This document shows positions 45,156 to 58,143 of a stretch of 64,000 nt of DNA, in pieces. Location: assembly GCF_002000055.1 (NCBI RefSeq), contig NZ_MVBD01000007.1, forward strand, positions 124,001-188,000, read 5' to 3'. How positions within the stretch are numbered: the stretch's first letter is position 1; the number at the start of each line of letters is the position of its first letter. Origin of the DNA: Marinicella sediminis. Lineage in GTDB: Bacteria; Pseudomonadota; Gammaproteobacteria; Xanthomonadales; Marinicellaceae. A program made the position numbers and the translations under genes. A model generated the notes under the pieces. It saw only the letters and a program-made list of their open reading frames with translations. It did not search any database and had not been told where the DNA came from.

Positions 45156-45247
45156 ATTTGACAATGTGGCGGTCTGAATTTGATGAGGCTGTAACCACAA
45201 TGTCACCGAAACAGTAAGGCCTAGCGCCGTTGACCGGGGTAACAAAC

Positions 45248-47185
45248 ATGAAAAAGAAATTTGGTCATTATGAAGTGGTCTCTGAACTGGGCAGAGGCGG
45301 AATGGGTGTGGTCTATAAAGCCTGGGAACCTTCATTAAACCGACACGTGGCGATCAAGGCACTGGGTGAACACCTGCTTGAAGACGAAGGCCTGATTGAA
45401 CGATTCACCCGGGAAGCCAAAAGCATGGCTGCCATTAACCACCCAAATGTGATTCAGGTCTACTACATTGGTAAAGAGGATCGTCAGCCATTTTTTGCCA
45501 TGGAGTTCATTGAAGGCGTTTCGCTGGATGACCTGTTGCGCGGCAATCATGTGTTGTCCGTACCCCACGCCAAAGACATACTGCGACAAGCTTGTGCTGG
45601 TTTGGCCGTGGCCCATGACCAGGATTTGGTGCACCGGGATATCAAACCCGCCAACCTGATGTTGTGTGATGACGGCACGGTTAAAGTGGTTGATTTTGGC
45701 ATCGCGCAAACCCGTGAATATGGTGACAAACTGACCAACACCGGTGAGTTCGTCGGCACCCCTGGATACCTGTCTCCTGAAGTGTGTACCGGCAAAGAAG
45801 TGGATGCCCGTTCAGACATCTTCGCGTTGGGAATTGTGTTCTATGAGATGCTAGCCGGAAAAGTGCCCTTTGAAAACGACAGTCCGCTGGGGCTGATGCT
45901 GGAAGTGGTACAGGCCGACATTCCTGACATTCGTGCCATCAACAAAAAAGTCGACAAAAAAACCAGTTATATCCTGGAAAAAATGATTGCCAAGAATCCC
46001 GAAGAGCGTTGTCAGTCCTGTCAGGAAGTGATCAGGTTTTTGGGGCCATCATCTGGTACTGTAAGCCTGGCAGAGATAAAAAAGCAAGCCGTCTCTGTGA
46101 AACCCGAGAAACCCACTGCCAGGGTGTCACAACAGGTGACCCTGCAATCAGCTGCGATCGATACCGTGGTTCCCTCAGGTCGCAAGAAATCCAACAAAGC
46201 GGTGTGGAGTGTTCTGGTGCTGGCACTGGCGGTCGGTGTTGGCGCTGTGGGCATTCATGAAGGCTACATTCCTTCTCCATTCAAGGCTGATGACCGTCAG
46301 GCCATGACCTTGCTGGGCAACCAGCAAGATGACATGGAACTGCAGGATGTCAACCTCAAATCCAAAGAAGAATTGGCAGCCATCAGCGCCGATATGAATG
46401 CCGCCCTGGAAGACGCTCAGCCCCAGAAAAGCACTTCGACAAACACCGAAGCAGCTGAAGACAATGCCATCGCAACAGCACAAAAACCAACTGCCGAAAC
46501 TACTCCACTGACAGACAACACTGCCAAACCGACCGGTCAGCCACCGGTTGTCAGCAACCAATCTGACCAGCAACTGGCAACCACACAGACTACCACCAGC
46601 CAACAACAGCTCGACAAACAGGTCAGCAAACAGGTGATCAATGATGCCTCGCTGATGGCCTCGGTAGACAAAACCAGCAATGACAAGCAAGCATTCATTG
46701 AACAGCAAAGCAAACCTGTGGTGCGCAAACCCAAACCAGTGATCAAAAACAAAGGCGTTGCGGTGCTGGTATTTGGTGATCCAGCGGTGGCGAATCCGAT
46801 TGAAAAGATCCTTGAGTCAGAGCTCAAAAGGGCCAACATCAAAGTGCTCAATGAACAGTTTGTTCCTGGCCTGTCACAAGTCATGTCACAAGGCATCGAT
46901 CTGGCCATGATCAAAGAAAAACTCGATGCTTACGGTGGTCAGACAATGATCATTGCCAATGTCAACCATGTGGGAGAACAAACCCTTGAATATTACGGCC
47001 GCCAGTCCATCCTGGTCAATGCACAACTGGATGTGGACAGTTATGACCTGGCCACTGGTGACTCCATTGGCATGGGTTATGGCTCAGAGCTCAGTTATAC
47101 CAGCCTGAATGCCACCGATACCGCCCAGGAAGCAGTGATGGGCTTTGTTGAACGATTGAAACATGACCTGAAAAATCAACGTTGA
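45248..47185 (+). CDS. Membrane Ser/Thr protein kinase with LpoB/CsgG-like periplasmic domain
   Basis: 645 residues from MKKKFGHYEV; GGGG lies seven bases upstream of the ATG, while the longer frame starts at TTG. The Hanks-type kinase domain spans about 7-265: glycine loop GRGGMG (15-20), Lys37, HRDIKPANL near 130, VDFGIAQ and GTPGYLSPE. A membrane helix lies at about 317-336, then a low-complexity Gln/Thr/Ser linker. A C-terminal domain of about 150 residues (KGVAVLVFGDPAVANPIEK...) resembles CsgG/LpoB/FlgT folds that assist envelope machines. PASTA repeats, usual in PknB, are absent. It probably senses an envelope signal and phosphorylates cytoplasmic targets. It overlaps the next gene by four bases. 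Confidence 0.9.
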   Translation: MKKKFGHYEVVSELGRGGMGVVYKAWEPSLNRHVAIKALGEHLLEDEGLIERFTREAKSMAAINHPNVIQVYYIGKEDRQPFFAMEFIEGVSLDDLLRGNHVLSVPHAKDILRQACAGLAVAHDQDLVHRDIKPANLMLCDDGTVKVVDFGIAQTREYGDKLTNTGEFVGTPGYLSPEVCTGKEVDARSDIFALGIVFYEMLAGKVPFENDSPLGLMLEVVQADIPDIRAINKKVDKKTSYILEKMIAKNPEERCQSCQEVIRFLGPSSGTVSLAEIKKQAVSVKPEKPTARVSQQVTLQSAAIDTVVPSGRKKSNKAVWSVLVLALAVGVGAVGIHEGYIPSPFKADDRQAMTLLGNQQDDMELQDVNLKSKEELAAISADMNAALEDAQPQKSTSTNTEAAEDNAIATAQKPTAETTPLTDNTAKPTGQPPVVSNQSDQQLATTQTTTSQQQLDKQVSKQVINDASLMASVDKTSNDKQAFIEQQSKPVVRKPKPVIKNKGVAVLVFGDPAVANPIEKILESELKRANIKVLNEQFVPGLSQVMSQGIDLAMIKEKLDAYGGQTMIIANVNHVGEQTLEYYGRQSILVNAQLDVDSYDLATGDSIGMGYGSELSYTSLNATDTAQEAVMGFVERLKHDLKNQR

Positions 47186-48285
47186 ATGATGCACCAAAGG
47201 TGAGCCAGATAAACCACAGGCGGGTGCTGCTGTTGTCCGCCTATGATGCCGCATCACATCGCTACTGGCACCAGCAGTTGCGCCTGCAGTTCCCCAATTG
47301 GAATTGGACCCTACTTAGTTTGAAAGACCGTTATTTTGCCTGGCGCATGGGGGGTAATGCCCTCAGTTTTAAAGCCGCATATGACCGGCAACTGAGTGAG
47401 GCATATGATCTGGTTGTGGCCACATCAATGACTGATCTGACCTCCCTGAGAAGCTGGTATCCGCACCTGAGCCAGGTGCCCAACCTGCTGTACTTTCATG
47501 AAAACCAGTTTGCTTACCCAGTCAATCACAGGCAACAGGGGTTGCTGGAAATGCAATTACGCTCAGTACTCAGCGCCTGCAGCGCAGACCGCCTGGCGTT
47601 TAACTCCCACTACAACAGAGACACCTTCCTGGCAGGCCTCAGACAAATGCTTAACAGCATGCCTGACGGCACGCCTGATGATTTACCTGAACAATTGGCT
47701 GCTCGCTCGGTGGTGTTGCCGGTGCCGTTGACAGAAGACTGTCAGCCACTGACCAACAAAAACCAGAAAAACGAACTGCACATTATCTGGAACCACCGTT
47801 GGGAACATGACAAGGGCCCTGAGGTGTTACTGGCATTGTTGCAACACTGTCAGCAACATCCAAAAGCAAGCACATTTCGGTTTCACCTGTTGGGCCAGTC
47901 ATTCAAAAAAGTTCCACATGCCATGCAACAAATACTTGATCAGCACGCCGCACAACTGGAGCAAACTGGTCGATTGACAGACCGCTCTGACTACCTGGCC
48001 ACCCTGCAACAGGCAGATGTCGGCATTTCAACCGCTTACCATGACTTTCAGGGCCTGGCATTGCAGGAAGCAGTGGCTTGTGGCTGTGTTCCGCTGGCAC
48101 CTGACCGATTGGTTTATCCGGAATGGTATCCAGAGGACTGCCGCTATCCTTCCTGCCCCGACAACCCCCAGGAAGAGGCCAGGCACATGTTTCACAAACT
48201 GTTGGAACTGCCAACCCAATCGATCGATCTGTCGGCCTTGAAATGGCGTGCATTACATCAGGACTACCTGCAATGGCTGAGTTAA
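47182..48285 (+). CDS. tRNA-queuosine mannosyltransferase-like glycosyltransferase (DUF3524/GTDC1 family)
   Basis: 367 residues. The N-terminal domain carries LLLSAYDAASHRYWHQQL, LKDRYFAWRMGGNA and YFHENQFAYP, hallmarks of DUF3524/GTDC1, the family whose vertebrate member attaches mannose to queuosine in tRNA-Asp. The C-terminal half has the GT-B donor domain: IWNHRWEHDKGPEVLL, ISTAYHDFQGLALQEAVACGCVPL. The likely substrate is queuosine-modified tRNA with GDP-mannose; this is by family and unproven for bacteria as far as I can tell. The start is TTG at 47182 or GTG at 47200; the TTG overlaps the kinase stop. It lies two genes past aspS (the tRNA-Asp charging enzyme), which may be coincidence. 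Confidence 0.82.
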   Translation: MNDAPKVSQINHRRVLLLSAYDAASHRYWHQQLRLQFPNWNWTLLSLKDRYFAWRMGGNALSFKAAYDRQLSEAYDLVVATSMTDLTSLRSWYPHLSQVPNLLYFHENQFAYPVNHRQQGLLEMQLRSVLSACSADRLAFNSHYNRDTFLAGLRQMLNSMPDGTPDDLPEQLAARSVVLPVPLTEDCQPLTNKNQKNELHIIWNHRWEHDKGPEVLLALLQHCQQHPKASTFRFHLLGQSFKKVPHAMQQILDQHAAQLEQTGRLTDRSDYLATLQQADVGISTAYHDFQGLALQEAVACGCVPLAPDRLVYPEWYPEDCRYPSCPDNPQEEARHMFHKLLELPTQSIDLSALKWRALHQDYLQWLS

Positions 48286-48662
48286 CTCAGGCGCCCCGCT
48301 GGGCGATGGTCTCAGGCTGGATGATGCTTGGTGGACTGGTGGTGCTGTCACTGGTTTCTTTGCCTGCTGTCAACACCGGAGTACCTGACACTGATAAGTG
48401 GCTGCATTTGTTGAGTTATGGCTGGCTTGGGTTTTGGTTTTATCATCTCTACCCCCGTCATTTACTGAAGGTATTGACCGGTTTGGTACTGTTGGGGCTG
48501 TCCCTCGAGGCTTTACAGGCCCTGAACCCTGCGCGCAGTACCGAATGGCTGGATGCATTGATGAATGCCTGCGGTGTTGGGCTGGCCTGGGTGGTATACC
48601 AGGTATTCGGTTGGCGCTGGTTTTTTATCCGCCCTGTGCAATCAGATCAGGGTGGTGGTTAA
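48273..48662 (+). CDS. VanZ-like membrane protein
   Basis: 129 residues starting MAELTQAPRW. About three or four helices; PDTDKWLHLLSYGWLGFWFY is the typical VanZ signature (DKxxHxxxY), and EALQALNPARSTEWLDALMNACGV the second. The function of VanZ-like proteins outside teicoplanin resistance is not established; they probably act on envelope lipids or peptides. It overlaps the preceding gene by 13 bases; a frame open from further upstream is a shadow. Confidence 0.88.
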   Translation: MAELTQAPRWAMVSGWMMLGGLVVLSLVSLPAVNTGVPDTDKWLHLLSYGWLGFWFYHLYPRHLLKVLTGLVLLGLSLEALQALNPARSTEWLDALMNACGVGLAWVVYQVFGWRWFFIRPVQSDQGGG

Positions 48663-48826: not shown

Positions 48827-49756
48827 ATGCCAACAGTTGACATCATTGTACCTGTCTACAACGAACAAGACGTCATTCCTTTGTTTCAGGATCGCATCAC
48901 TGAGGTGATGGCCACCTGTGATGTCCAGTGGCGTGTGCTGTTTGTGGATGATGGTTCAGCAGATGACAGTCTGTCAACCATCAAAGGCATTCAAGAATCA
49001 GACAGTCGCTTTGGGTACCTGTCACTGAGTCGTAATTTTGGCAAGGAATATGCCGTAACAGCAGGTCTGGACCACGCTTCTGCTGATGCCGTGGTGGTGA
49101 TAGATGTGGACCTGCAGGATCCACCCGAATTGATTCCTGATATGATAGCCCAATGGCACAGTGGTTACGATGTGGTTTATGCCACCCGCAAAGCCAGACA
49201 TGGAGAATCGGCGGCCAAAAAGCTCACCGCCAACTGGTTTTACAACATCATCAATGTGATGAGCCAGATCGACATCCCCAAAGACACCGGAGATTACCGG
49301 CTGATGTCCCGCAAAGCTTATCAGGCAGTCAATCAATTGCGCGAAAACAACCGCTTTATGAAAGGTTTGTTTGCCTGGGTGGGATACAAGCAAAAGCAAC
49401 TGTATTTTGAGCGCGAGCCCCGGGCCGCGGGTGAAACCAAATGGAACTACCCGAAACTCTGGCGGTTTGCCCTGGACGGCATCACATCATTCAGTTATTT
49501 GCCCCTGAGATTCGCTACCTGGATCGGCATGACAGTGGCTTGCTTTGCCTTTATTTATGGTGCGGTAATCATTGTCAAAACCCTGATGATGGGCGCCGAT
49601 GTACCAGGCTATCCCTCCTTGATGGTGGTCATGCTGTTCCTCGGCGGCATCCAGCTGATGGCGCTGGGCATCATCGGTGAGTACCTGGGCCGCATGTTCA
49701 GCGAAAGCAAAAACCGGCCGTTGTATCTGGTCGATGAATACCAACCCCCAGAATAA
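48827..49756 (+). CDS. Family 2 glycosyltransferase, GtrB/DPM1-like
   Basis: 309 residues. A GT-A domain: VDIIVPVYNEQDVIP, LFVDDGSADDS, and the D-x-D-L-Q-D motif DVDLQDPPELI near residue 90. YATRKARHGES and KDTGDYRLMSRKAY follow the pattern of enzymes that load sugar on to polyprenyl phosphate. Two C-terminal membrane helices (about 232-290) complete the GtrB topology. It probably makes undecaprenyl-phosphate-sugar for transfer outside the membrane. It is the first gene of a seven-gene run to 57753, with two bases to the next gene. Confidence 0.92.
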   Translation: MPTVDIIVPVYNEQDVIPLFQDRITEVMATCDVQWRVLFVDDGSADDSLSTIKGIQESDSRFGYLSLSRNFGKEYAVTAGLDHASADAVVVIDVDLQDPPELIPDMIAQWHSGYDVVYATRKARHGESAAKKLTANWFYNIINVMSQIDIPKDTGDYRLMSRKAYQAVNQLRENNRFMKGLFAWVGYKQKQLYFEREPRAAGETKWNYPKLWRFALDGITSFSYLPLRFATWIGMTVACFAFIYGAVIIVKTLMMGADVPGYPSLMVVMLFLGGIQLMALGIIGEYLGRMFSESKNRPLYLVDEYQPPE

Positions 49757-49758
49757 TC

Positions 49759-51390
49759 ATGAAAACTGCTACCTTAATTTTATTGACCCTGATGTTGGTC
49801 GCTTGTAATGACGCGCCAGAATCCAATGAGCAGGACCACCGGGGCGGGCCATTCATCACCTCTGCCCACTACTTTTCATCCACCTGGCCAAAAACATTCT
49901 GGCAGGATTTTGAACGGGCTGATGTGGCAGCAGAGTTGCAGCAAATCAAAGCCGATGGTTTCAACACCATCGTACTGACCGTACCCTGGCGGGGGTTTGA
50001 AATCAATTTTCAAAACCCGGTCACTGATTCGGTGGAAACACTTTACGACCGCTTTGAGTGGCTGCTTGCCGCCATCACTGATCAACAAATGCAGTACATC
50101 CTGCGGGTCGGTTTCCCACATGACTACACACCCGATACGGGTATCACCGGCATGCAGCAATGTGTGGGCATTTACACCAAAGATCAGACCCGGGCACAAT
50201 GGCTGAATTACCTGGATAAAGTCAAAACAGCCACCGCTCCTTTCACCGACCATCTGGCCGGTGTTTTGATTTCCTGGGAGGATTTCTGGTGTCCACATTT
50301 TGTGTTTCCCCACCTGCCTGAGAATGACCGGCTGCAACATGCCAGACAAATGGGTTATGGCGAATGGCTGAAAAGCAAGGACAGCAATGTCTTGCGGGTA
50401 TTGCTGGGAGTGAACGAATTGAATCATCATGACATTCCAATACCCACTACTCAGGATGAGTCTTATGTGTTTTACATTGAATTCATCGACCAGCAGCTGG
50501 ATCAGATACTGGTCAATACCCAACAGGTGTTTCCACAGGCTGCACTGGAAATCAGGGTGGATAAAGACCCCGTCAAACAAGGTGAATCGTTCATTTGGGT
50601 TGGTCATGAGCTTTATTTGGACGAATCCAATCACCGAGGTACTTATTGGGCACCCTTTTGGGGCGCTGCCAATCAGGGAGAATTGTTAACCGCTGAACAA
50701 GCGCTGAAAAACTTCAGGTACTTCCTGAAATATGTCACCGCTGACGGGAACAACACCAATCATGTCATTGAACAGTTCAATTTCACCGACAACACCCCGT
50801 ACTTTCCCAACAATGCCAACATTCTGCCTGACGAAATTGATGATTTTCTGTTGGCATCAGCGCCACTGCTGAAGCAATACACCGCTGGAGCCGGGGTTTG
50901 GGCGTACCGTAATTATCATGACAATGCACTGTATAACGGCTCTTTCGAAATGGGCCTGAACGGCTGGCAAACCAGTGGCCAGACAGAACTACAGGGAGAT
51001 GAGTTTGACCGGCAGTTAAGCATGACCAATGGATCCACCATCAGCCAGTCATTCATCCCGGTCGACCATTTTATGCTGATCAGCGCCTATGAGACGGTTG
51101 ACTGGTGTTTTGTCGCCGATGCCCATGGTCAACTGGAACTGTTGATCAACGAGCAACCGCTTCACCTGGCCAAGGTCGTGCCTGGTGAGAACTGTTTCCC
51201 TGTTGATGCTGCACCACTGAAATCCTCAACCCCCGTACAAGTGGGTTTCATTGCCCACAGTGATCTGGTGGTGGACGAGTTTTCAATACACGGCTTTACC
51301 CAGGACCTGGGCTTATACCAGACCAATGGAGAACCAGGTCGCTACCTGCCTGCTTACCGGCAGTTAAACCAGCTGTTACTGGATGATTGA
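49759..51390 (+). CDS. Glycoside-hydrolase-like lipoprotein with C-terminal carbohydrate-binding-type domain
   Basis: 543 residues. Lipobox VAC (Cys16) ends a short signal peptide. A TIM-barrel-like body runs from about 30 to 390: FNTIVLTVPWRGFE, LRVGFPHDY, GVLISWEDFW, VGHELYLDE and FNFTDNTPY resemble the successive strands of family 2/5-like glycosidases, with acidic residues in WEDFW and HELYLDE as candidate catalytic pairs. A beta-sandwich with YNGSFEMGLNGWQTSGQ follows (about 395-520), like carbohydrate-binding modules. It presumably trims a surface glycan made by the neighbouring transferase. No family is confirmed. Confidence 0.7.
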   Translation: MKTATLILLTLMLVACNDAPESNEQDHRGGPFITSAHYFSSTWPKTFWQDFERADVAAELQQIKADGFNTIVLTVPWRGFEINFQNPVTDSVETLYDRFEWLLAAITDQQMQYILRVGFPHDYTPDTGITGMQQCVGIYTKDQTRAQWLNYLDKVKTATAPFTDHLAGVLISWEDFWCPHFVFPHLPENDRLQHARQMGYGEWLKSKDSNVLRVLLGVNELNHHDIPIPTTQDESYVFYIEFIDQQLDQILVNTQQVFPQAALEIRVDKDPVKQGESFIWVGHELYLDESNHRGTYWAPFWGAANQGELLTAEQALKNFRYFLKYVTADGNNTNHVIEQFNFTDNTPYFPNNANILPDEIDDFLLASAPLLKQYTAGAGVWAYRNYHDNALYNGSFEMGLNGWQTSGQTELQGDEFDRQLSMTNGSTISQSFIPVDHFMLISAYETVDWCFVADAHGQLELLINEQPLHLAKVVPGENCFPVDAAPLKSSTPVQVGFIAHSDLVVDEFSIHGFTQDLGLYQTNGEPGRYLPAYRQLNQLLLDD

Positions 51391-51474
51391 TCATTTCACC
51401 CAGTGGTTAACACATTGTGGTGACAAATCAGTTAAAATCCACGGATTTCAGAAACCACGCAGACAACCAGGCCG

Positions 51475-52797
51475 ATGATTTGGAAAACACCCCGGAAACT
51501 GATTGAAAAAATCCTGTTTTACAGCGCGCTGCTGAGTTTGTTGCTGGCTGGGTGTTTCGTCTGGCTCGCCGTCAGCTGGCCTGAGATGAAAGATCAGGTT
51601 CGAGATTATGACAAATCAATCAAAAACCAATTCGTGGTTTTAACCCAGAGAAAAAAAATTGCCCTGGATAAAACCACTGATGAAAACGAACAATTGCGCC
51701 TGCATCAGGAGATTCTTGAGTTACTGAAGGACAACACCAACCTCAATCATCACCAGGACCAGTTGGCAAAGAGTCACCTGTTCATCATTGAACACCACCT
51801 GAAAAACAACCAAACAGCCGAGGCGCTGGTAGCAGCTGAGCATTTTGCCAACACCCAGCCTTACCACATTCCTGCACAAATCAAACAGGTTGAAGTGCGC
51901 TTTCTGATTGATCAACAGGCTGCATTGACCGCAATGGAGGAACTGGCCCGCCGCTTTTTTGATGTCCCCCTGGTCCAAAGTGCTTACGTTCGTCTGTTAA
52001 TCCAAGCCGATCAATTTGATCAGGCCCGATCGGTGGCACAACAGTTCCAGGTACACCTCAAAGATTATCTGGAACCGACTTTCATGTTTTATCACGCCAA
52101 CCAGCAGCAACCCAAATACAGCCAGCAACGTATCATCCGGATCAAACAAGGTGATTACCAAAAAACCGGCGATCGTTACCGGGCTGAAGTGTCCATTCAG
52201 GTCAATGACCTGAGGCGGTTGCGGTTTGACCTGGACCTGCTGAATCCAGGTTCCCGGTTGGTTGAGTTACAATTCGCCGCCAAGCTCAACGGTCAAACCC
52301 ATCAACTGGCTTTTGAGGCCAGTCATCACTTGCAGCAACTGGCTGGTGATTGGGTCACCACCGGCACCGACCCCTATGTTGAATTGCTGTTACCTGCGGC
52401 GCTGAAAGGCACCAGTGAACCCCTGACATTGTTGTTTGACCTCGTCCTGGATCGCAAACAACTGAACCCCATTGATGAGTTGTTCGCCAATGGACTTTGG
52501 TCAGCTGAGCAGTCCGCTAGCACAATGAGTTTCCTGCCTGCCGGCAACAGTCGTTATGTTGCTCAGTGGACCCAACAAACAGACCAACTGACCATCATTC
52601 TGCCACCCATCAATGGGTTGAACTTCGCCGAACTGTCCCTGTCCGGACAAGGCGGTAATGTGCCCCCGCACACATACCAGGGACTGGAACAAATCAGTCA
52701 GGGCTGGGTCATCACTGATGATCAACCAAGTTTGCATTTTACTGATGTGGCAGGTCAATCACTGACTTTTCTGGTCGGGGTAAACAATGATGATTAA
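51475..52797 (+). CDS. Single-pass membrane protein with TPR-like and beta-rich domains, unknown
   Basis: 440 residues. One membrane helix (about 13-33), then a helical region with charged heptad-like segments and paired helices (about 45-200) resembling TPR repeats (KNNQTAEALVAAEHFANTQP). A beta-rich C-terminal domain (about 215-440) follows. I recognise no family. It ends 11 bases inside the CotH gene and lies in the surface-modification run, so it may be a periplasmic scaffold for the CotH protein. This is inference from position. Confidence 0.7.
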   Translation: MIWKTPRKLIEKILFYSALLSLLLAGCFVWLAVSWPEMKDQVRDYDKSIKNQFVVLTQRKKIALDKTTDENEQLRLHQEILELLKDNTNLNHHQDQLAKSHLFIIEHHLKNNQTAEALVAAEHFANTQPYHIPAQIKQVEVRFLIDQQAALTAMEELARRFFDVPLVQSAYVRLLIQADQFDQARSVAQQFQVHLKDYLEPTFMFYHANQQQPKYSQQRIIRIKQGDYQKTGDRYRAEVSIQVNDLRRLRFDLDLLNPGSRLVELQFAAKLNGQTHQLAFEASHHLQQLAGDWVTTGTDPYVELLLPAALKGTSEPLTLLFDLVLDRKQLNPIDELFANGLWSAEQSASTMSFLPAGNSRYVAQWTQQTDQLTIILPPINGLNFAELSLSGQGGNVPPHTYQGLEQISQGWVITDDQPSLHFTDVAGQSLTFLVGVNNDD

Positions 52798-55504
52798 GTC
52801 GATCAAAAAAATCATTACATTGAGTCTGATTGTGACTTTGCCAATCAATATTTTTGGCATCGTCTGGGCCATCAACACCTATCAGGCCTACCACCTGATG
52901 GATGAATTCACCACCACCCTGCCCAAAGGCCAGCGCCTGGAGCGCCTGGCTGAAGCTGAATACCAGGACCTGACAACCAAAACCCTTAAACTGTTTGGAA
53001 TCAGCCAGAGTTACGACGCAGAACTGATTCTCAAAGACAAGGCCATCAGCCAACTGAACAGCAATCTGCCATCCAGCGGTATGAGTTACCAGGGTGATGC
53101 CTGGCTGATCATGGATGGCCAGGCCTTGAAAGGCGACGCTCGTTACCGCGGTGATCACTACTTCCACTGGTCTTTCCCACAAAAATCCTGGCGATTCAAG
53201 GCCAGTAAAAAGAACATCGTCAACGGCATGCGTAAATACAATTTTATCTTGCCAAAAAACGCCCACATGTTGTCCAACAAAATGTCTTACGAACTGGCTC
53301 GCCAATTGGGACTGTTGGCACCAGAGGCCCGACTGCTGGAACTGGGCATCAACGGGAATTACTCCGGACCCAGGCTGCTGGTCGAACAAATTGGCGAAAG
53401 CTTTCTGCGAAAAAACCGGCGCATGCCCAATGATGTTTATGTCGGTGACAACATCGGCTCAGCCTATTATGAAGGGGTTCACCCATTCATTTTTAACCAT
53501 GCGTCAATCTGGGACAAAGCCTCCAGCAACAACCATTACCCAGATGACAGCAAGCGACCGTTGGAAGTAATGATCCAACAGCTTGAGCAGGATCGACATG
53601 ACCTGATAGACCTCCGCAAATTTGCTGCCAAAGGAGCTTTGATTGACCTGACGGCCAGCTACCACCATGACAATAAACACAACTGGAAGCTGTTGTATGA
53701 TGGCTACTATGAGCGCATAGAGCCGATTGTCTGGGACACCCTGGGCTGGATGGACTACACCGCCAGAATCCCGGAATTTAACATTGCCAATTCTAAACTC
53801 ATGGCCTCTTTGAACCGCAATTACGATTACCTGCGGGCCAAATCACATGTGTTGAAACAATTCTATCAGTCCGATCGACCACTCTTTGATCAGTCACTGA
53901 AAAACGCCGCTGAACAGGCTGTCGGTATCATCGAAAACAATGGCTTCGCCTACGAACTGGATGGCCTCAGAAGGACCGAAGATGAGGCCAAAAAGCAGGT
54001 ACAGTTATTCACAGATTTGGTTGATGAACGACTGAATATGGTCAAAGACCACTTCCTGGGTGATGTCGATCCTGCACATTTTGCCTATCAGGTTCTGGCA
54101 GCTGACCGGCTGCGGATACAATTTGCGGATGCCAAAATGATCAAAGCCATCCAATTGCAACTGCCCGCTGCCGAAATGACAGAGCCCGTTTCACTGGCCT
54201 GGCTACACAACGAGCAATGGCAACAACAAGACATCAGTCACCTGGTATCAAGGAATGACCAGCTATTGGTTTTGGAAGTTGAACTGCTGGCCAACAACCG
54301 CACCCGTTCTGGCTATGCCGGGGTTTACAGTGAACCGGTCATCACCACCATTGATGTATTGATTGAAGGCGCTGACCTCAAGCAATTAACCGGTATCAGC
54401 CTGGAACTGGCCAACCTCAGCGAACAACGTGTTTTAGCCGAGCCCCGTAATGACATCCGGCCGGCCGGGTATGATGATGGGCTGCAAAACATCATTCCGC
54501 CAGCACCGGTGCTTCCGACCACCCACCTGAGTGGTCTCATTGAGGTCAACAGTGACCTGACTTTTCATGAAGATGTGGTCATCGCCCCAGGCACCACGTT
54601 CATGATCGGTCCACAGATCAATCTGCGGTTTTTCGGGCACATCACAGCTCACGGGACGGCCGAACAACCCATTTCATTCCAACCTGCTGATCCCAAATCA
54701 CCCTGGGGCGCTGTGGCCATCAAAGACGAAGGTGCCAACGGCTCCCGCTTTTCACATTGTGAATTCATTGGCGGCAGTGGTGCCAAAGGCGACCTGTTTG
54801 AATACACCGCCATGCTATCCATACACAATGTCAGAGACATCGCTTTTGAACATTGCGGCTTTTATGACAGTAAAATCACCGATGACATGATTCATGTGAT
54901 TTACAGCGAAGCTTCTTTCAGTCATTCAGTGTTTGTCAGATCGCTGGCCGATGCCCTGGATGCCGATATTTCTGAGTTGACCATCAGTCATTGCGAATTC
55001 ATCGACAATGGCAACGACTCCATTGACCTGATGACGGCACGGGCCGTGGTACACAACACCCGCTTTTTGCGCTCAGCGGATAAAGGCATTTCAATTGGTG
55101 AAGGCAGTCAATTGCTGGCTTTTGACAACCACATAGAAGACAGCGAAATCGGCATGCAAAGCAAGGACACGTCATTGGCATACATCTTTAACACCGATTT
55201 CATTGGCAACAACAAAGCCATTGACGCTTATCATAAAAACTGGCGCTATGCTCAGGGTGGCCAGATCAACCTGCACCAATGTCGACTGGAAGCCAACCAA
55301 TCCAATGCCACGGTGGATAAAAAATCAAGCATCTCCCTGAACCAGTGTCAGATAGATGACCCCTCCAACATCGACCTGAAAGACCAGCAAAAACAACGCA
55401 TCCTGATCACTGATCAGCATGCACCAGCGGTGGACTTTACCCACCCGTTTTTTCAACCTTACCTGAGTGACTTTAACCAACCGGAGACTCATGGACGCCA
55501 TTAA
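52787..55504 (+). CDS. CotH-kinase family protein fused to a right-handed beta-helix
   Basis: 905 residues. An N-terminal membrane anchor (about 8-30) places the rest in the periplasm or at the surface. The CotH-like kinase domain (about 85-430) has GDARYRGDHYFHW, FPQKSWRFK, LSNKMSYELARQLG and the catalytic-region sequence LTASYHHDNKHNWKLLYD followed by PIVWDT. From about 580 to 860 a right-handed beta-helix carries repeated HCxF-type turns (FSHCEF, FEHCGF, ISHCEF, LHQCRL, LNQCQI). CotH proteins are atypical secreted kinases that phosphorylate surface proteins; the helix may bind a glycan or protein target. It overlaps the VTC gene by 14 bases. Confidence 0.85.
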   Translation: MMIKSIKKIITLSLIVTLPINIFGIVWAINTYQAYHLMDEFTTTLPKGQRLERLAEAEYQDLTTKTLKLFGISQSYDAELILKDKAISQLNSNLPSSGMSYQGDAWLIMDGQALKGDARYRGDHYFHWSFPQKSWRFKASKKNIVNGMRKYNFILPKNAHMLSNKMSYELARQLGLLAPEARLLELGINGNYSGPRLLVEQIGESFLRKNRRMPNDVYVGDNIGSAYYEGVHPFIFNHASIWDKASSNNHYPDDSKRPLEVMIQQLEQDRHDLIDLRKFAAKGALIDLTASYHHDNKHNWKLLYDGYYERIEPIVWDTLGWMDYTARIPEFNIANSKLMASLNRNYDYLRAKSHVLKQFYQSDRPLFDQSLKNAAEQAVGIIENNGFAYELDGLRRTEDEAKKQVQLFTDLVDERLNMVKDHFLGDVDPAHFAYQVLAADRLRIQFADAKMIKAIQLQLPAAEMTEPVSLAWLHNEQWQQQDISHLVSRNDQLLVLEVELLANNRTRSGYAGVYSEPVITTIDVLIEGADLKQLTGISLELANLSEQRVLAEPRNDIRPAGYDDGLQNIIPPAPVLPTTHLSGLIEVNSDLTFHEDVVIAPGTTFMIGPQINLRFFGHITAHGTAEQPISFQPADPKSPWGAVAIKDEGANGSRFSHCEFIGGSGAKGDLFEYTAMLSIHNVRDIAFEHCGFYDSKITDDMIHVIYSEASFSHSVFVRSLADALDADISELTISHCEFIDNGNDSIDLMTARAVVHNTRFLRSADKGISIGEGSQLLAFDNHIEDSEIGMQSKDTSLAYIFNTDFIGNNKAIDAYHKNWRYAQGGQINLHQCRLEANQSNATVDKKSSISLNQCQIDDPSNIDLKDQQKQRILITDQHAPAVDFTHPFFQPYLSDFNQPETHGRH

Positions 55505-56231
55505 AGAACATTTTCTGCGCTATGAGTTCAAGTACATCCTCAATGACGAGCTGCGCGACCAGGTGGAAGATGAACTGAACCATTTCATGCAACTCGACCC
55601 TTTTGTGGTAGGCCGTCCGGATCACAAATACCTGGTCAGAAGCCTGTATTTTGACGACCCGCATTACAGTTTCTACTACGAAAAAACAGATGGCCTGATG
55701 CACCGGCAAAAATTCCGTATTCGGACTTACACTGATCAGTATCAGTCTGACGTACCGATCATGCTCGAATTAAAAGGCCGGTACAATAATTTCGTCTATA
55801 AACACCGCACCGTGATCAATCATGATGCGGGTTCTAAAGATGACGTGTTTGCCCTGACCGAACAGATTGCCAACAAAGACAACAACCCGGTTTATGAACA
55901 ATTCATCTATGATCAATTCCGCAAGCAAATCAAACCGGTGATGCTCATTGATTACCAAAGAAGGGCTTATCAAAGTAAATTTGATTATGAATTCCGCATC
56001 ACCTTTGATGGTGAATTGTATGGCACTGAAACCACACGATTGTTTCCTGATACCGCGGTTAAAAGGCGAAAACTGATCGATGGTTTCACCATCATGGAAG
56101 TCAAGTTCCGTAAACACGTGCCGCCCTGGTTTCACCGCATCATGATAAAATATCAGCTGAAACGACTGTCAATTTCCAAGTATTGCACAGGAATGGAAAG
56201 CACCCAATTAATTGAAGACTTAGAAGATTAA
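55491..56231 (+). CDS. VTC-domain polyphosphate polymerase-like protein
   Basis: 246 residues from MDAIKEHFLRYEFKYIL, with CCGGAG before the ATG; the longer frame overlaps more of the CotH gene. The tunnel-fold motifs are RYEFKYIL, RSLYFDDP, KFRIRTY, LELKGR, IDYQRRAYQ, RITFDGE, IMEVKFR and ISKYC, matching the VTC domain that makes polyphosphate from ATP in yeast Vtc4. Basic and acidic residues at tunnel positions are retained. In bacteria the VTC domain commonly travels with CotH and DUF4956 genes, as here. The start-stop overlap suggests coupling to the kinase. Confidence 0.88.
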   Translation: MDAIKEHFLRYEFKYILNDELRDQVEDELNHFMQLDPFVVGRPDHKYLVRSLYFDDPHYSFYYEKTDGLMHRQKFRIRTYTDQYQSDVPIMLELKGRYNNFVYKHRTVINHDAGSKDDVFALTEQIANKDNNPVYEQFIYDQFRKQIKPVMLIDYQRRAYQSKFDYEFRITFDGELYGTETTRLFPDTAVKRRKLIDGFTIMEVKFRKHVPPWFHRIMIKYQLKRLSISKYCTGMESTQLIEDLED

Positions 56232-56242
56232 CAGGATCAAAA

Positions 56243-56929
56243 ATGGAAAATCAAATATTAGAAGCATTCGGCACCGGCTTTAACAGCTCCATCATTGAGG
56301 TGATGCTCAACAGTTTTGTGGCATTTGTGCTTTCACTGGTGATTGCCTTCACTTACAAAAAAACCCATCAGGGCTTATCTTACTCACAGTCATTTGTGCT
56401 GACCCTGATTTTTCTGACCATCATCATAGGTTTTGTGATGATGGTAATCGGCAACTCCCTGACCCGGGCATTTGCACTGGTCGGTGCGTTGAGCATCATC
56501 CGCTTCAGAACCGTGGTCAAGGATACCAAAGACACCGCATATGTGTTCATGGCACTGGCCGTTGGCATGGCTGCCGGTACCGCCAATTACTTCATTGCCC
56601 TGTATGCCACAGTGTTCCTGAGCACCATTGCCTGGGTGTTGTTTAAATTCAATTTTGGTTTACAGCGATCGAGTGATTTCATCCTGCGTTTTTTCTATGC
56701 CAAATCATCTGATAACGATGAGCAGTACGTCAATTACATCAACAAACAATCAGAAACCAATGCCTTGTTACACATGGAGCCATCCGGAGATGGTGACCGC
56801 TTGCATCTGACTTATGACCTGTCACTCAGGGAAGAAGTGGATGTGAATGATTTCATCAATCAGATTTCACAAATGGACGGCATCAGTGAAGTGGTGCTGG
56901 TGAGCGCCAAGAATGATGTGAATTACTGA
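56243..56929 (+). CDS. DUF4956 membrane protein
   Basis: 228 residues. Three or four membrane helices (about 20-140) with ALSIIRFRTVVKDTKDTAYVF, the DUF4956 core, then a cytosolic C-terminal domain. The family has no assigned function; its steady pairing with VTC-domain proteins suggests a membrane channel or partner for polyphosphate synthesis. It sits 11 bases after the VTC gene. Confidence 0.88.
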   Translation: MENQILEAFGTGFNSSIIEVMLNSFVAFVLSLVIAFTYKKTHQGLSYSQSFVLTLIFLTIIIGFVMMVIGNSLTRAFALVGALSIIRFRTVVKDTKDTAYVFMALAVGMAAGTANYFIALYATVFLSTIAWVLFKFNFGLQRSSDFILRFFYAKSSDNDEQYVNYINKQSETNALLHMEPSGDGDRLHLTYDLSLREEVDVNDFINQISQMDGISEVVLVSAKNDVNY

Positions 56930-56955
56930 CCGGCATAGGTCAGACCATCAGACTC

Positions 56956-57753
56956 ATGTTCAGTCAATACCGGATATTGTTCAGCACATTGATTATGGCC
57001 ATGGCTGTGGCCTTGTTTGTGCTGCGCAATGGATACCAGGGTCAACCCGAATTGATTGCCCATGCCGGTGGTGGAATTGAACGTGAAACATACATGAATT
57101 CACTGGAAACCATCAACCTGAATTATCAGTTAGGGCATCGCTATTTTGAACTGGACTTCAGCTGGACAGCGGATGACCAGCTGGTATTGATCCATGACTG
57201 GAAAAAATCCTATAAGCGGTTGTTCAATAACCACAGTGAGCAACCGCCTGACTCACAGGCTTTTGTGAACATGCCAATGCTTAACGATCACACACCCATG
57301 ACATTGGCCGATTTAGTAAACTGGTTAAAATCCCATCCTGACGCCCATGTGTTGGCTGACATCAAGGACCGCAATGTAGCCGGCCTGCATCACATCAAAA
57401 CCCATCATCCAGAGATCAGTCAACAGTTCATCGCCCAGGTATTTCACCCACGTGAATACCCGGAGGTCAGGGCCTTGGGATATGATCGGGTGGTATATTC
57501 ATTGTATAAAATCCGCATACCTACGGTGGAGATCAAAACTTTTATCAAGGAAGCTGAATTGTTTGCTCTGGCCATGAAAACGGTGCAGAAGGATTTTGAT
57601 GCCTTGCTACAGACCGCCAATGACCACCGGGTTTTTGTTTATGTACAGACCATCAATGACATCGAGCAGTTGCGTTCGCTGCAACAAAAAGGGGTGAATG
57701 GTATTTACACTGACTTTATATACGAAAAGCAGGGAGAACTGGTCTACCAGTAA
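56956..57753 (+). CDS. Divergent GDPD/PI-PLC-like phosphodiesterase
   Basis: 265 residues. A signal-anchor covers about 8-25. The catalytic region reads IAHAGGG ... NSLETINLNYQLGHRYFELDFSWTADDQLVLIHDW, following the GDPD pattern (H, ...E, x, D, H). However, the usual HRG is HAGGG and the first E-x-D is ELDF. DIKDRN supplies the later metal ligand. The protein would hydrolyse a glycerophosphodiester or similar phosphodiester in the periplasm, for example a teichoic-like or phosphoglycerol substituent. It ends the run; hfq follows after 90 bases. Confidence 0.8.
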   Translation: MFSQYRILFSTLIMAMAVALFVLRNGYQGQPELIAHAGGGIERETYMNSLETINLNYQLGHRYFELDFSWTADDQLVLIHDWKKSYKRLFNNHSEQPPDSQAFVNMPMLNDHTPMTLADLVNWLKSHPDAHVLADIKDRNVAGLHHIKTHHPEISQQFIAQVFHPREYPEVRALGYDRVVYSLYKIRIPTVEIKTFIKEAELFALAMKTVQKDFDALLQTANDHRVFVYVQTINDIEQLRSLQQKGVNGIYTDFIYEKQGELVYQ

Positions 57754-58110: not shown

Positions 58111-58143
58111 AAGCAGTTTCTGTTTCAGAAGCTGCTTTTTTAT
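58111..58143 (+). terminator. Rho-independent terminator of hfq
   Basis: AAGCAGTTTCTG-TTT-CAGAAGCTGCTT, 12 pairs with one mismatch, followed by T-rich TTTTATT. It begins 28 bases after hfq. The remaining bases to hflX (58144-58341) show no supported gene. Confidence 0.85.

Follow-up and report, generated by a model that had tools for sequence, protein, structure and literature searches.

A CotH, VTC and DUF4956 gene block at a variable surface-glycan site of Marinicella sediminis

Introduction

How a kinase acting outside the inner membrane might obtain its phosphate is the question raised by a locus of Marinicella sediminis, which lies at positions 48,827–57,753 of a 64,000-nucleotide stretch of contig NZ_MVBD01000007.1 (positions 124,001–188,000 of the forward strand; this whole stretch is referred to here as the window). 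Seven genes are packed together at this locus, including genes for a CotH-type kinase, a VTC-type polyphosphate polymerase and a DUF4956 membrane protein; to our knowledge, no source of ATP is evident for the kinases that bacteria secrete beyond the inner membrane. An initial annotation proposed that all seven genes form a single pathway for a secreted phospho-glycan or phosphoprotein. We find that the conserved unit is a block of four genes, g3-CotH-VTC-DUF4956, situated in a polymorphic site, and we consider whether this core could be an extracytoplasmic phosphorylation module, which, if true, would provide a concrete and testable answer to the question of phosphate supply. Genomes are designated by G numbers, with G000 being the window genome (98% complete), and loci by L numbers.

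Recurrence of the four-gene block

The four core genes in the window are as follows:

51475..52797, + strand: g3, a membrane-anchored, probably periplasmic, weakly TPR-like protein with one N-terminal transmembrane (TM) segment at 13–31
52787..55504, + strand: g4, a CotH kinase domain (at about 119–332; PF08757, 1e-13) with a C-terminal right-handed beta-helix (PF13229, 1.1e-7)
55491..56231, + strand: g5, a VTC-type triphosphate-tunnel enzyme (PF09359, 2.8e-39) without SPX domain or TM segment
56243..56929, + strand: g6, DUF4956 (PF16316, 5.8e-15), an MgtC-like membrane protein with a soluble C-terminal part

Near full-length relatives of the window CotH are present in three of 60 other related genomes, all from one other genus of the family, and no homologue was found in the 17 genomes of its own genus. 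A scan of public genomes for CotH yielded six loci, comprising the same three genomes together with a gammaproteobacterial symbiont, a Pseudomonadales metagenome-assembled genome (MAG) and a Campylobacterales MAG. In every locus whose upstream side can be seen (the window, G023, G028, G029, G426 twice, and G427), g3 lies immediately 5′ of CotH; the Campylobacterales contig (G425) starts within CotH, so its upstream side is not visible. VTC follows CotH in the window, G023, G029, G425 and the second copy of G426, and DUF4956 follows VTC in the window, G023, G425 and G426. Across these core loci the VTC proteins are 72–75% identical, the CotH proteins 35–47%, and the g3 proteins 15–23%. The conserved block is thus g3-CotH-VTC-DUF4956, with the CotH-VTC-DUF4956 order recurring in the Gammaproteobacteria and in a Campylobacterales MAG, and the proposed clustering of these three genes is real, being seen as conserved gene order across distant taxa.

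In G426, an OpgB-like gene takes the place of VTC after the first CotH copy. At L013 (8561–19333) there is a tandem double g3-CotH, with an OpgB-like phosphoglycerol transferase between the copies on the opposite strand.

VTC and DUF4956 occur together

Homologues of VTC are rare. In a sample of the class they are found in 8 of 369 genomes (the window genome included), and the other seven all have DUF4956 within 6 kb; in a sample of the phylum (Pseudomonadota, n = 398) VTC scores above the cut-off in seven genomes, all seven of which have DUF4956, as does one (G858) of the 391 others. This co-occurrence has a Fisher p of 2.7e-14, ignoring kinship. Genome G776, with a VTC match below the cut-off, has no DUF4956 match in the phylum sample, and where a genome has two VTC genes it also has two DUF4956 genes. 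In a sample of 200 genomes from the phylum of G425, VTC is present in G425 only. Weak matches to CotH in G060 and G025 (L006 and L007) proved to be other CotH proteins, and in the phylum sample G060 matched neither VTC nor DUF4956.

We examined 18 VTC genes, comprising those of the class and phylum samples plus G023 and G425, with that of the window included; the pairs L013/L025, L008/L014, L004/L011 and L005/L012 each represent one genome and are counted once, and the VTC of L011, which is cut by a contig end, is excluded. DUF4956 lies on the same strand and within about 6 kb for all 18 VTC genes, and in 13 of them CotH is located between or beside the pair. The five loci without CotH have different company: HlyD-type adaptors are encoded in L027 and L028, and a PHO4 transporter in L028, L051 and L053, while in L050, where one neighbour was scanned, neither was identified. 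CotH and HlyD are both present in L048, and an OEP gene in L027. An inorganic pyrophosphatase gene lies directly 3′ of DUF4956 in L008 and L016, and its product has a clearly hydrophobic N-terminus in L016 and a shorter signal-like stretch, below threshold, in L008. Phytase-like esterases are encoded in L026 and L051.

We note that the CotH-less VTC-DUF4956 loci with HlyD, at L027 9540–14313 (with OEP) and L028 9857–15954, are candidate phosphate-polymer export operons. A gene for a small protein also lies divergently beside DUF4956-VTC in L050 (10071–10499) and L051 (10297–10704) of genome G712; the L050 protein has EF-hand-like matches below the cut-off, and the L051 protein was judged by its likeness to it.

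The VTC protein and its active site

A profile of the 18 bacterial VTC proteins matches yeast Vtc4 (3g3q) at 7e-23, and the alignments equate Vtc4 residues R196, K200, R264, R266, K281, E426, K428 and K458 with R10, K14, R76, R78, K95, E203, K205 and K230 of the window protein. These eight residues, together with E93 and K104, are invariant in all 18 proteins. K458 of Vtc4 is named as catalytic (PMC4641920), and the triple substitution R264A/R266A/E426N is used as an impaired yeast VTC (PMC9911596). As judged from sequence, then, g5 has the VTC tunnel fold with the Vtc4 catalytic set.

The triphosphate tunnel metalloenzymes (TTM) include hydrolases and a cyclase, and Vtc4 is described as having four basic residues at the positions of the acidic patch in TTM hydrolases (PMC4641920). 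Three of the four acidic-patch positions of the hydrolases and cyclases are basic in the window VTC (R10, K104 and K205), as in Vtc4; the counterpart of the Glu-90 position in VTC is one that we infer from the alignment.

The window VTC is 246–254 amino acids long and consists of the VTC domain only. The resemblance to the eukaryotic complex of Vtc4 with Vtc1/Vtc3 thus resides in the catalytic residues of the tunnel domain, and the window cluster has a membrane partner at hand; it differs in that its VTC lacks SPX and a fused TM region, such that DUF4956 may be the substitute for the Vtc TM channel. In yeast VTC, polyphosphate synthesis is reported to be coupled to translocation (PMC9911596).

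No PPK1 match (PF02503) was found in the window genome, and PPK1 is present in 7 of the 14 VTC-bearing genomes searched. VTC may therefore be the sole maker of long-chain polyphosphate in G000, the search having covered PPK1 and not PPK2.

The CotH, g3 and DUF4956 proteins

The CotH domain of g4 scores 51.9 bits against a Pfam cut-off of 23.8, and a profile of three CotH homologues matches the CotH structure 5jd9 at 3.3e-6. Hydropathy shows one N-terminal membrane segment each in g3, CotH and the GDPD-type protein (g7), three in DUF4956 and none in VTC; g4 is thus probably anchored by its N-terminal TM segment and extracytoplasmic. In Bacillus subtilis CotH the D228Q and D251A substitutions are inactive (PMC7821199), and D317 of the window protein is present in all 17 aligned CotH proteins. 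The window CotH is therefore like the Bacillus spore-coat kinase in the homology of its kinase domain and in retaining D317, and differs in coming from a Gram-negative, in its beta-helix fusion, in its membrane anchor and in its linkage to VTC-DUF4956.

Of the CotH proteins scanned, those of the window, L026 and L049 alone have a beta-helix scoring over the Pfam cut-off. Conserved acidic motifs, identified by eye on the alignment, occur in the beta-helix region of 14 of the 15 CotH proteins from VTC loci (the exception is L048), and because of this conservation the region is probably functional rather than a spacer.

TPR_14 is matched by five of the six members of the g3 family, with a best value of 1.4e-4 and 0.14 for the window protein. 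DUF4956 matches the MgtC/SapB model NF007431 at 4.8e-6, below the cut-off of that model, and 16 of the 18 family members have three or four TM segments.

A polymorphic site between GT2 and hfq

The other features of the cluster and its right-hand border are:

48827..49756, + strand: GT2, a polyprenyl-phosphate sugar transferase of the sll0501/GtrB type (PF00535, 2e-27, over cut-off) with two C-terminal TM segments
49759..51390, + strand: g2, an accessory lipoprotein and candidate glycosidase-like TIM barrel (lipobox LVAC, recognised by eye)
56956..57753, + strand: g7, an accessory GDPD-type phosphodiesterase, probably periplasmic (PF03009, 5.3e-10), with an N-terminal TM or signal segment
57844..58083, + strand: hfq, a backbone gene and right-hand border of the variable site (named by eye)

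The seven open reading frames (ORFs) on the + strand are located where the initial annotation placed them, and its domain assignments for GT2, CotH/beta-helix, VTC, DUF4956 and GDPD hold, all being over the Pfam cut-off. Successive gaps are 2, 84, −11, −14, 11 and 26 bases, confirming that all gaps and overlaps are below 90 bases; here the VTC start is taken as the ATG at 55491, the earliest possible start in its frame being a GTG at 55467. The hfq gene begins 90 bases past GDPD.

Close packing does not make the seven genes a unit. We searched for GT2, GDPD and OpgB-like homologues in 24 genomes, consisting of the window genome, 10 of the 17 of the same genus, 10 of the 15 of the same family and three of those behind the other loci; the genomes outside these 24, mostly more fragmented or less complete, are absent from the counts. 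GT2 matches the solved enzyme sll0501, which we take to be a GtrB-type enzyme, at an E value of 1.2e-107, with its C-terminal TM segments at 232–250 and 265–283. It is present at 65% identity or more in 20 of the 21 family genomes tested (the window genome included), is 78–84% identical in all 10 congeners examined, none of which has a CotH match, and lies on a different contig from the core in G023. GT2 is therefore a backbone gene that borders the cassette and lies outside the core.

The g2 and GDPD genes are similarly separable. Few genomes of the class have g2 (3 of 369, the window genome included); it accompanies the core in G023 as well, and in G007 and G017, which lack the core, it is a neighbour of GT2 (53–56% identity). 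The GDPD domain scores 40.3 bits against a cut-off of 23.6, and GDPD homologues are widespread in the family, being present in 18 of the 24 genomes; in G003 and G014 (34–35% identity) one adjoins GT2 with no core present, and in G023 a homologue (40–42%) is 3.3 kb downstream of DUF4956 on the opposite strand. BLAST revealed no homologue of GT2, g2 or GDPD in the DNA around the L013 and L016 cores, of which L016 spans only 8.8 kb. Separation in relatives thus defeats the claim for all seven genes, but the four-gene block survives it.

The description of g2 as a glycosidase-like lipoprotein stands in part. The lipobox is present, and the six-member family gives weak signals, with GH35 matches in three members (best 8.6e-4) and a family profile that matches an endo-beta-mannanase at 9.7e-4; the window protein itself has no glycosidase match in Pfam, where its only hit is to DUF4148 at 0.0071, below the cut-off. 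Residues H37, W77, R116, H121, W173-E174-D175, E264 and D268 are invariant in all six, including W-E-D and E-x-R-x-D motifs. Kinship of g2 with DUF4832 was also considered and is undetected by Pfam. At L107 (3647–6955) a single protein of 1102 amino acids carries a GT2-family glycosyltransferase domain fused to a g2-like domain that follows it, with a sub-threshold CBM_4_9 signal on the C-terminal side of the g2-like domain; it is possible that the C-terminus of g2 is carbohydrate-binding.

The interval from GT2 to hfq is filled differently in congeners. The run aspS-Ser/Thr protein kinase-GT2-variable part-hfq is seen in G001, G002, G004, G012 and G013, in all of which an hfq homologue 91–97% identical ends the site; in G007, G011 and G014 only the left part lies within the stretch, and in G003 and G017 GT2 adjoins his genes (recognised by eye). 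Of the 10 congeners, 8 (G001, G002, G003, G004, G012, G013, G014 and G017) have an OpgB/LtaS-like enzyme next to GT2, among them all five where GT2 and hfq are both visible, whereas the G007 site has another sulfatase-type enzyme and the G011 site has no enzyme of either kind. MBOAT/AlgX-like pairs are present in G007, G011 and G014, mostly named by eye after the reference loci L008 and L098 (in L008 MBOAT is over the cut-off; ALGX is below it). The g2–g7 segment is thus one filling of a polymorphic surface-glycan site.

OpgB/MdoB and LtaS add phosphate groups to surface glycans, with a phospholipid head group as donor. Because its site holds an OpgB/LtaS-like phosphoglycerol transferase in congeners, the cassette is probably another way of placing phosphate on the same surface polymer. 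The likeness is that these enzymes adjoin, in congeners, the same GT2 that borders the cassette and also put phosphate onto surface glycans; their fold and donor are unrelated to those of the cassette, which makes them counterparts rather than relatives. No OpgB-like match was found in the window genome at an E value of 0.001, and OpgB-like matches above 200 bits, a line drawn after the scores were seen, occur in none of the four family genomes with the CotH core and in 12 of the 17 without it (Fisher 0.021, ignoring kinship).

Relation to Gram-positive pel loci

The initial annotation supposed the system to be undescribed, but its central genes have been reported before. Genes for CotH, a poly-phosphate polymerase, DUF4956 and DUF4832 adjoin pel genes in streptococci and clostridia, with a cyclase/phosphodiesterase gene in place of DUF4832 in bifidobacteria (PMC7112168). 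The Streptococcus intermedius accessory genes are SIR_1591–1594, and DUF4832 is borne there by an anchored TIM-barrel glycosidase (PMC7112168, PMC12345266); taken together, the two accounts make SIR_1592 the DUF4956 gene and SIR_1591 the DUF4832 gene. The streptococcal DUF4956 counterpart is described as an MgtC TM region with an ACT domain, and loss of the DUF4956 or CotH gene changes polymer level and aggregation (PMC12345266). A Clostridium perfringens locus also lists CotH and polyphosphate polymerase genes (PMC11677781).

The window cluster shares with these loci a contiguous run of CotH, VTC-type and DUF4956 genes and the tie to surface polysaccharide. Where the Gram-positive loci have an anchored TIM-barrel glycosidase with DUF4832, the window has a lipoprotein with the weak family-level GH35/mannanase signal and no detected DUF4832; further differences are the Gram-negative host, a CotH with a beta-helix instead of FN3, the additional g3 and GDPD genes and the absence of pel neighbours. 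No pel gene is among the neighbours read from aspS to purA, which was the extent of that inspection; the rest of the genome was not searched for them. One study states that the three-gene arrangement was not found outside the Pel locus in its analyses (PMC12345266); the window locus, within the flanks that were read, is an example of this kind. In the literature covered, which was mostly open-access and did not include bioRxiv, we found neither a Gram-negative version without pel, the beta-helix fusion, g3 or the exchange with phosphoglycerol transferases, nor a description of polyphosphate as a CotH donor. We regard the window locus as a Gram-negative form of a gene set already known, with a testable and possibly new mechanism.

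A possible mechanism and its alternatives

Surface phospho-modification, as the initial annotation suggested, is the likeliest theme of the cluster. Tentatively, and with a probability that we put somewhat short of even, we favour the core as an extracytoplasmic phosphorylation module in which polyphosphate would be made by VTC, passed via DUF4956 and used by CotH on a surface glycan or protein. It is favoured because the VTC catalytic set is intact throughout, the window genome has no PPK1 match, CotH accompanies most VTC genes and the loss of DUF4956 or CotH affects the polymer and aggregation of S. intermedius (PMC12345266); polyphosphate is suggested as its supply by the VTC-DUF4956 pairing, by the HlyD or PHO4 company in four of the five CotH-less loci, by the pyrophosphatase in two loci and by the site exchange with phosphoglycerol transferases. 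From the gene order, conservation, catalytic residues, co-occurrence and site contents described above we infer polyphosphate synthesis, its transport, its role as donor and the nature of the substrate.

In this scheme, cytoplasmic VTC would convert ATP to inorganic polyphosphate on the cytoplasmic side of the inner membrane, and DUF4956, as its membrane partner, would thread the chain, or a shorter phosphate carrier, to the periplasm. There the anchored CotH, without ATP, would draw phosphate from the polyphosphate chain and transfer it to a glycan or protein of the surface, which the beta-helix and the TPR-like g3 would hold. In loci that encode a secreted pyrophosphatase, this enzyme could clear the pyrophosphate left over; the g2 lipoprotein and GDPD might act by trimming the glycan or by taking off glycerophosphate groups. 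The fuller proposition, that VTC-DUF4956 is a polyphosphate synthesis-translocation pair powering an ATP-free periplasmic CotH and that the cassette serves, like OpgB/LtaS but without phospholipid, to put phosphate on surface glycans, is rather unlikely as a whole. The conserved link between the three genes gives DUF4956 a testable role, places the CotH-VTC-DUF4956 set outside the Gram-positive pel loci, and suggests that bacteria swap different phosphate-decoration chemistries at one surface-glycan site.

Several observations weigh against such a module. The strongest is that the S. intermedius polymerase mutant SIR_1593 still aggregates and keeps Pel, with no alteration reported in the text available (PMC12345266), which argues against dependence of CotH on VTC in that organism; in the same study deletion of DUF4956 raised Pel and deletion of CotH lowered it. 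B. subtilis CotH uses ATP in vitro (PMC7821199), and D295, the candidate match to its D228, is found in only 6 of the 17 aligned CotH proteins, a close clade (the match to D228/D251 is by spacing). The fourth acidic-patch position of VTC stays acidic (E12; E or D in 18 of 18), and DUF4956 resembles MgtC rather than a known channel. The CotH matches in L030 and L031 are below the Pfam cut-off, the L029 CotH is broken into two ORFs and separated from VTC by further ones, and G427 has g3-CotH at a contig end, where CotH runs off, and no VTC match in its genome. The pyrophosphatase is absent from the window cluster, and none was recognised 3′ of DUF4956 in L013. Lastly, exchange with OpgB-like enzymes is not strict: in G426, which is not of this family, the core adjoins an OpgB-like enzyme, and 5 of the 17 family genomes without the core also have no strong OpgB-like match.

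One rival explanation, rather unlikely in our estimation, is a regulatory module. DUF4956 would be an MgtC/ACT-type sensor, the tunnel enzyme would make or remove a small phosphate signal, and CotH would use another donor to phosphorylate a secreted protein and so tune glycan synthesis; the weak MgtC/SapB match, the ACT domain of the streptococcal counterpart, the opposite Pel phenotypes with a polymerase mutant not reported as altered (PMC12345266) and the hydrolases and cyclase among TTM enzymes (PMC4641920) are all consistent with this. The polymerase-type catalytic set is nonetheless invariant, with three of four acidic-patch positions basic, and VTC-DUF4956 is found with export-type and phosphate-transporter genes. 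The latter company, namely HlyD without CotH in L027 and L028 (with OEP in L027) and PHO4 in L028, L051 and L053, along with the coupling of synthesis to translocation in yeast VTC (PMC9911596), could also mean that the polyphosphate made by VTC is exported by DUF4956 as an end product. It would then form an anionic component of the surface matrix, and CotH/beta-helix and g3 would anchor or cap it on the glycan instead of drawing on it as a donor. We regard this as unlikely, as the presence of CotH at 13 of 18 VTC genes and the motifs in 14 of 15 beta-helix regions fit catalysis better than bare anchoring.

A full seven-gene pathway for one secreted phospho-glycan is decidedly improbable, and as an obligatory unit already largely refuted. 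The tight packing would suit it, as would the g2 lipoprotein and GDPD homologue near the core in G023 and the fusion of a g2-like to a GT2-family domain in L107, but GT2 occurs without the core in every congener examined, g2 and GDPD each lie beside GT2 without it, the GT2 of G023 is on another contig, and the L013 and L016 surroundings have none of the three by BLAST. That the genes merely gathered by chance at a variable site, with a core lacking joint function, is the least credible explanation and highly improbable; the contents of the GT2-hfq interval do differ in most congeners, but for the core this is refuted by the CotH-VTC-DUF4956 order, which is kept in distant taxa and in another phylum with VTC 72–75% identical, and by the VTC-DUF4956 co-occurrence.

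Borders and surroundings of the cluster

Base composition was considered as a sign of foreign origin, and the GC content of the cluster (48.5%, against 49.1% for the window) gives no signal in either direction. A scan for promoter-like sites returned 10 against a shuffle mean of 12.3, and one for terminator-like sites 15 against 10.4 (sd 3.0), about 1.5 sd above; the longest stem-loop is 3′ of hfq, at 58111–58137, and there is none at either cassette border. The scan neither supports nor excludes a single transcript.

Downstream of the cluster are hfq, hflX, hflK, hflC and purA, and upstream aspS, a Ser/Thr protein kinase, QTMAN and VanZ precede GT2 (aspS, hfq, the hfl genes and purA were named by eye). 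The segment before GT2, at 45230–48662, encodes a PknB-like Ser/Thr kinase, a QTMAN tRNA-queuosine mannosyltransferase and a VanZ protein, and this kinase-QTMAN-VanZ order is kept, with losses, in 8 of the 10 congeners examined.

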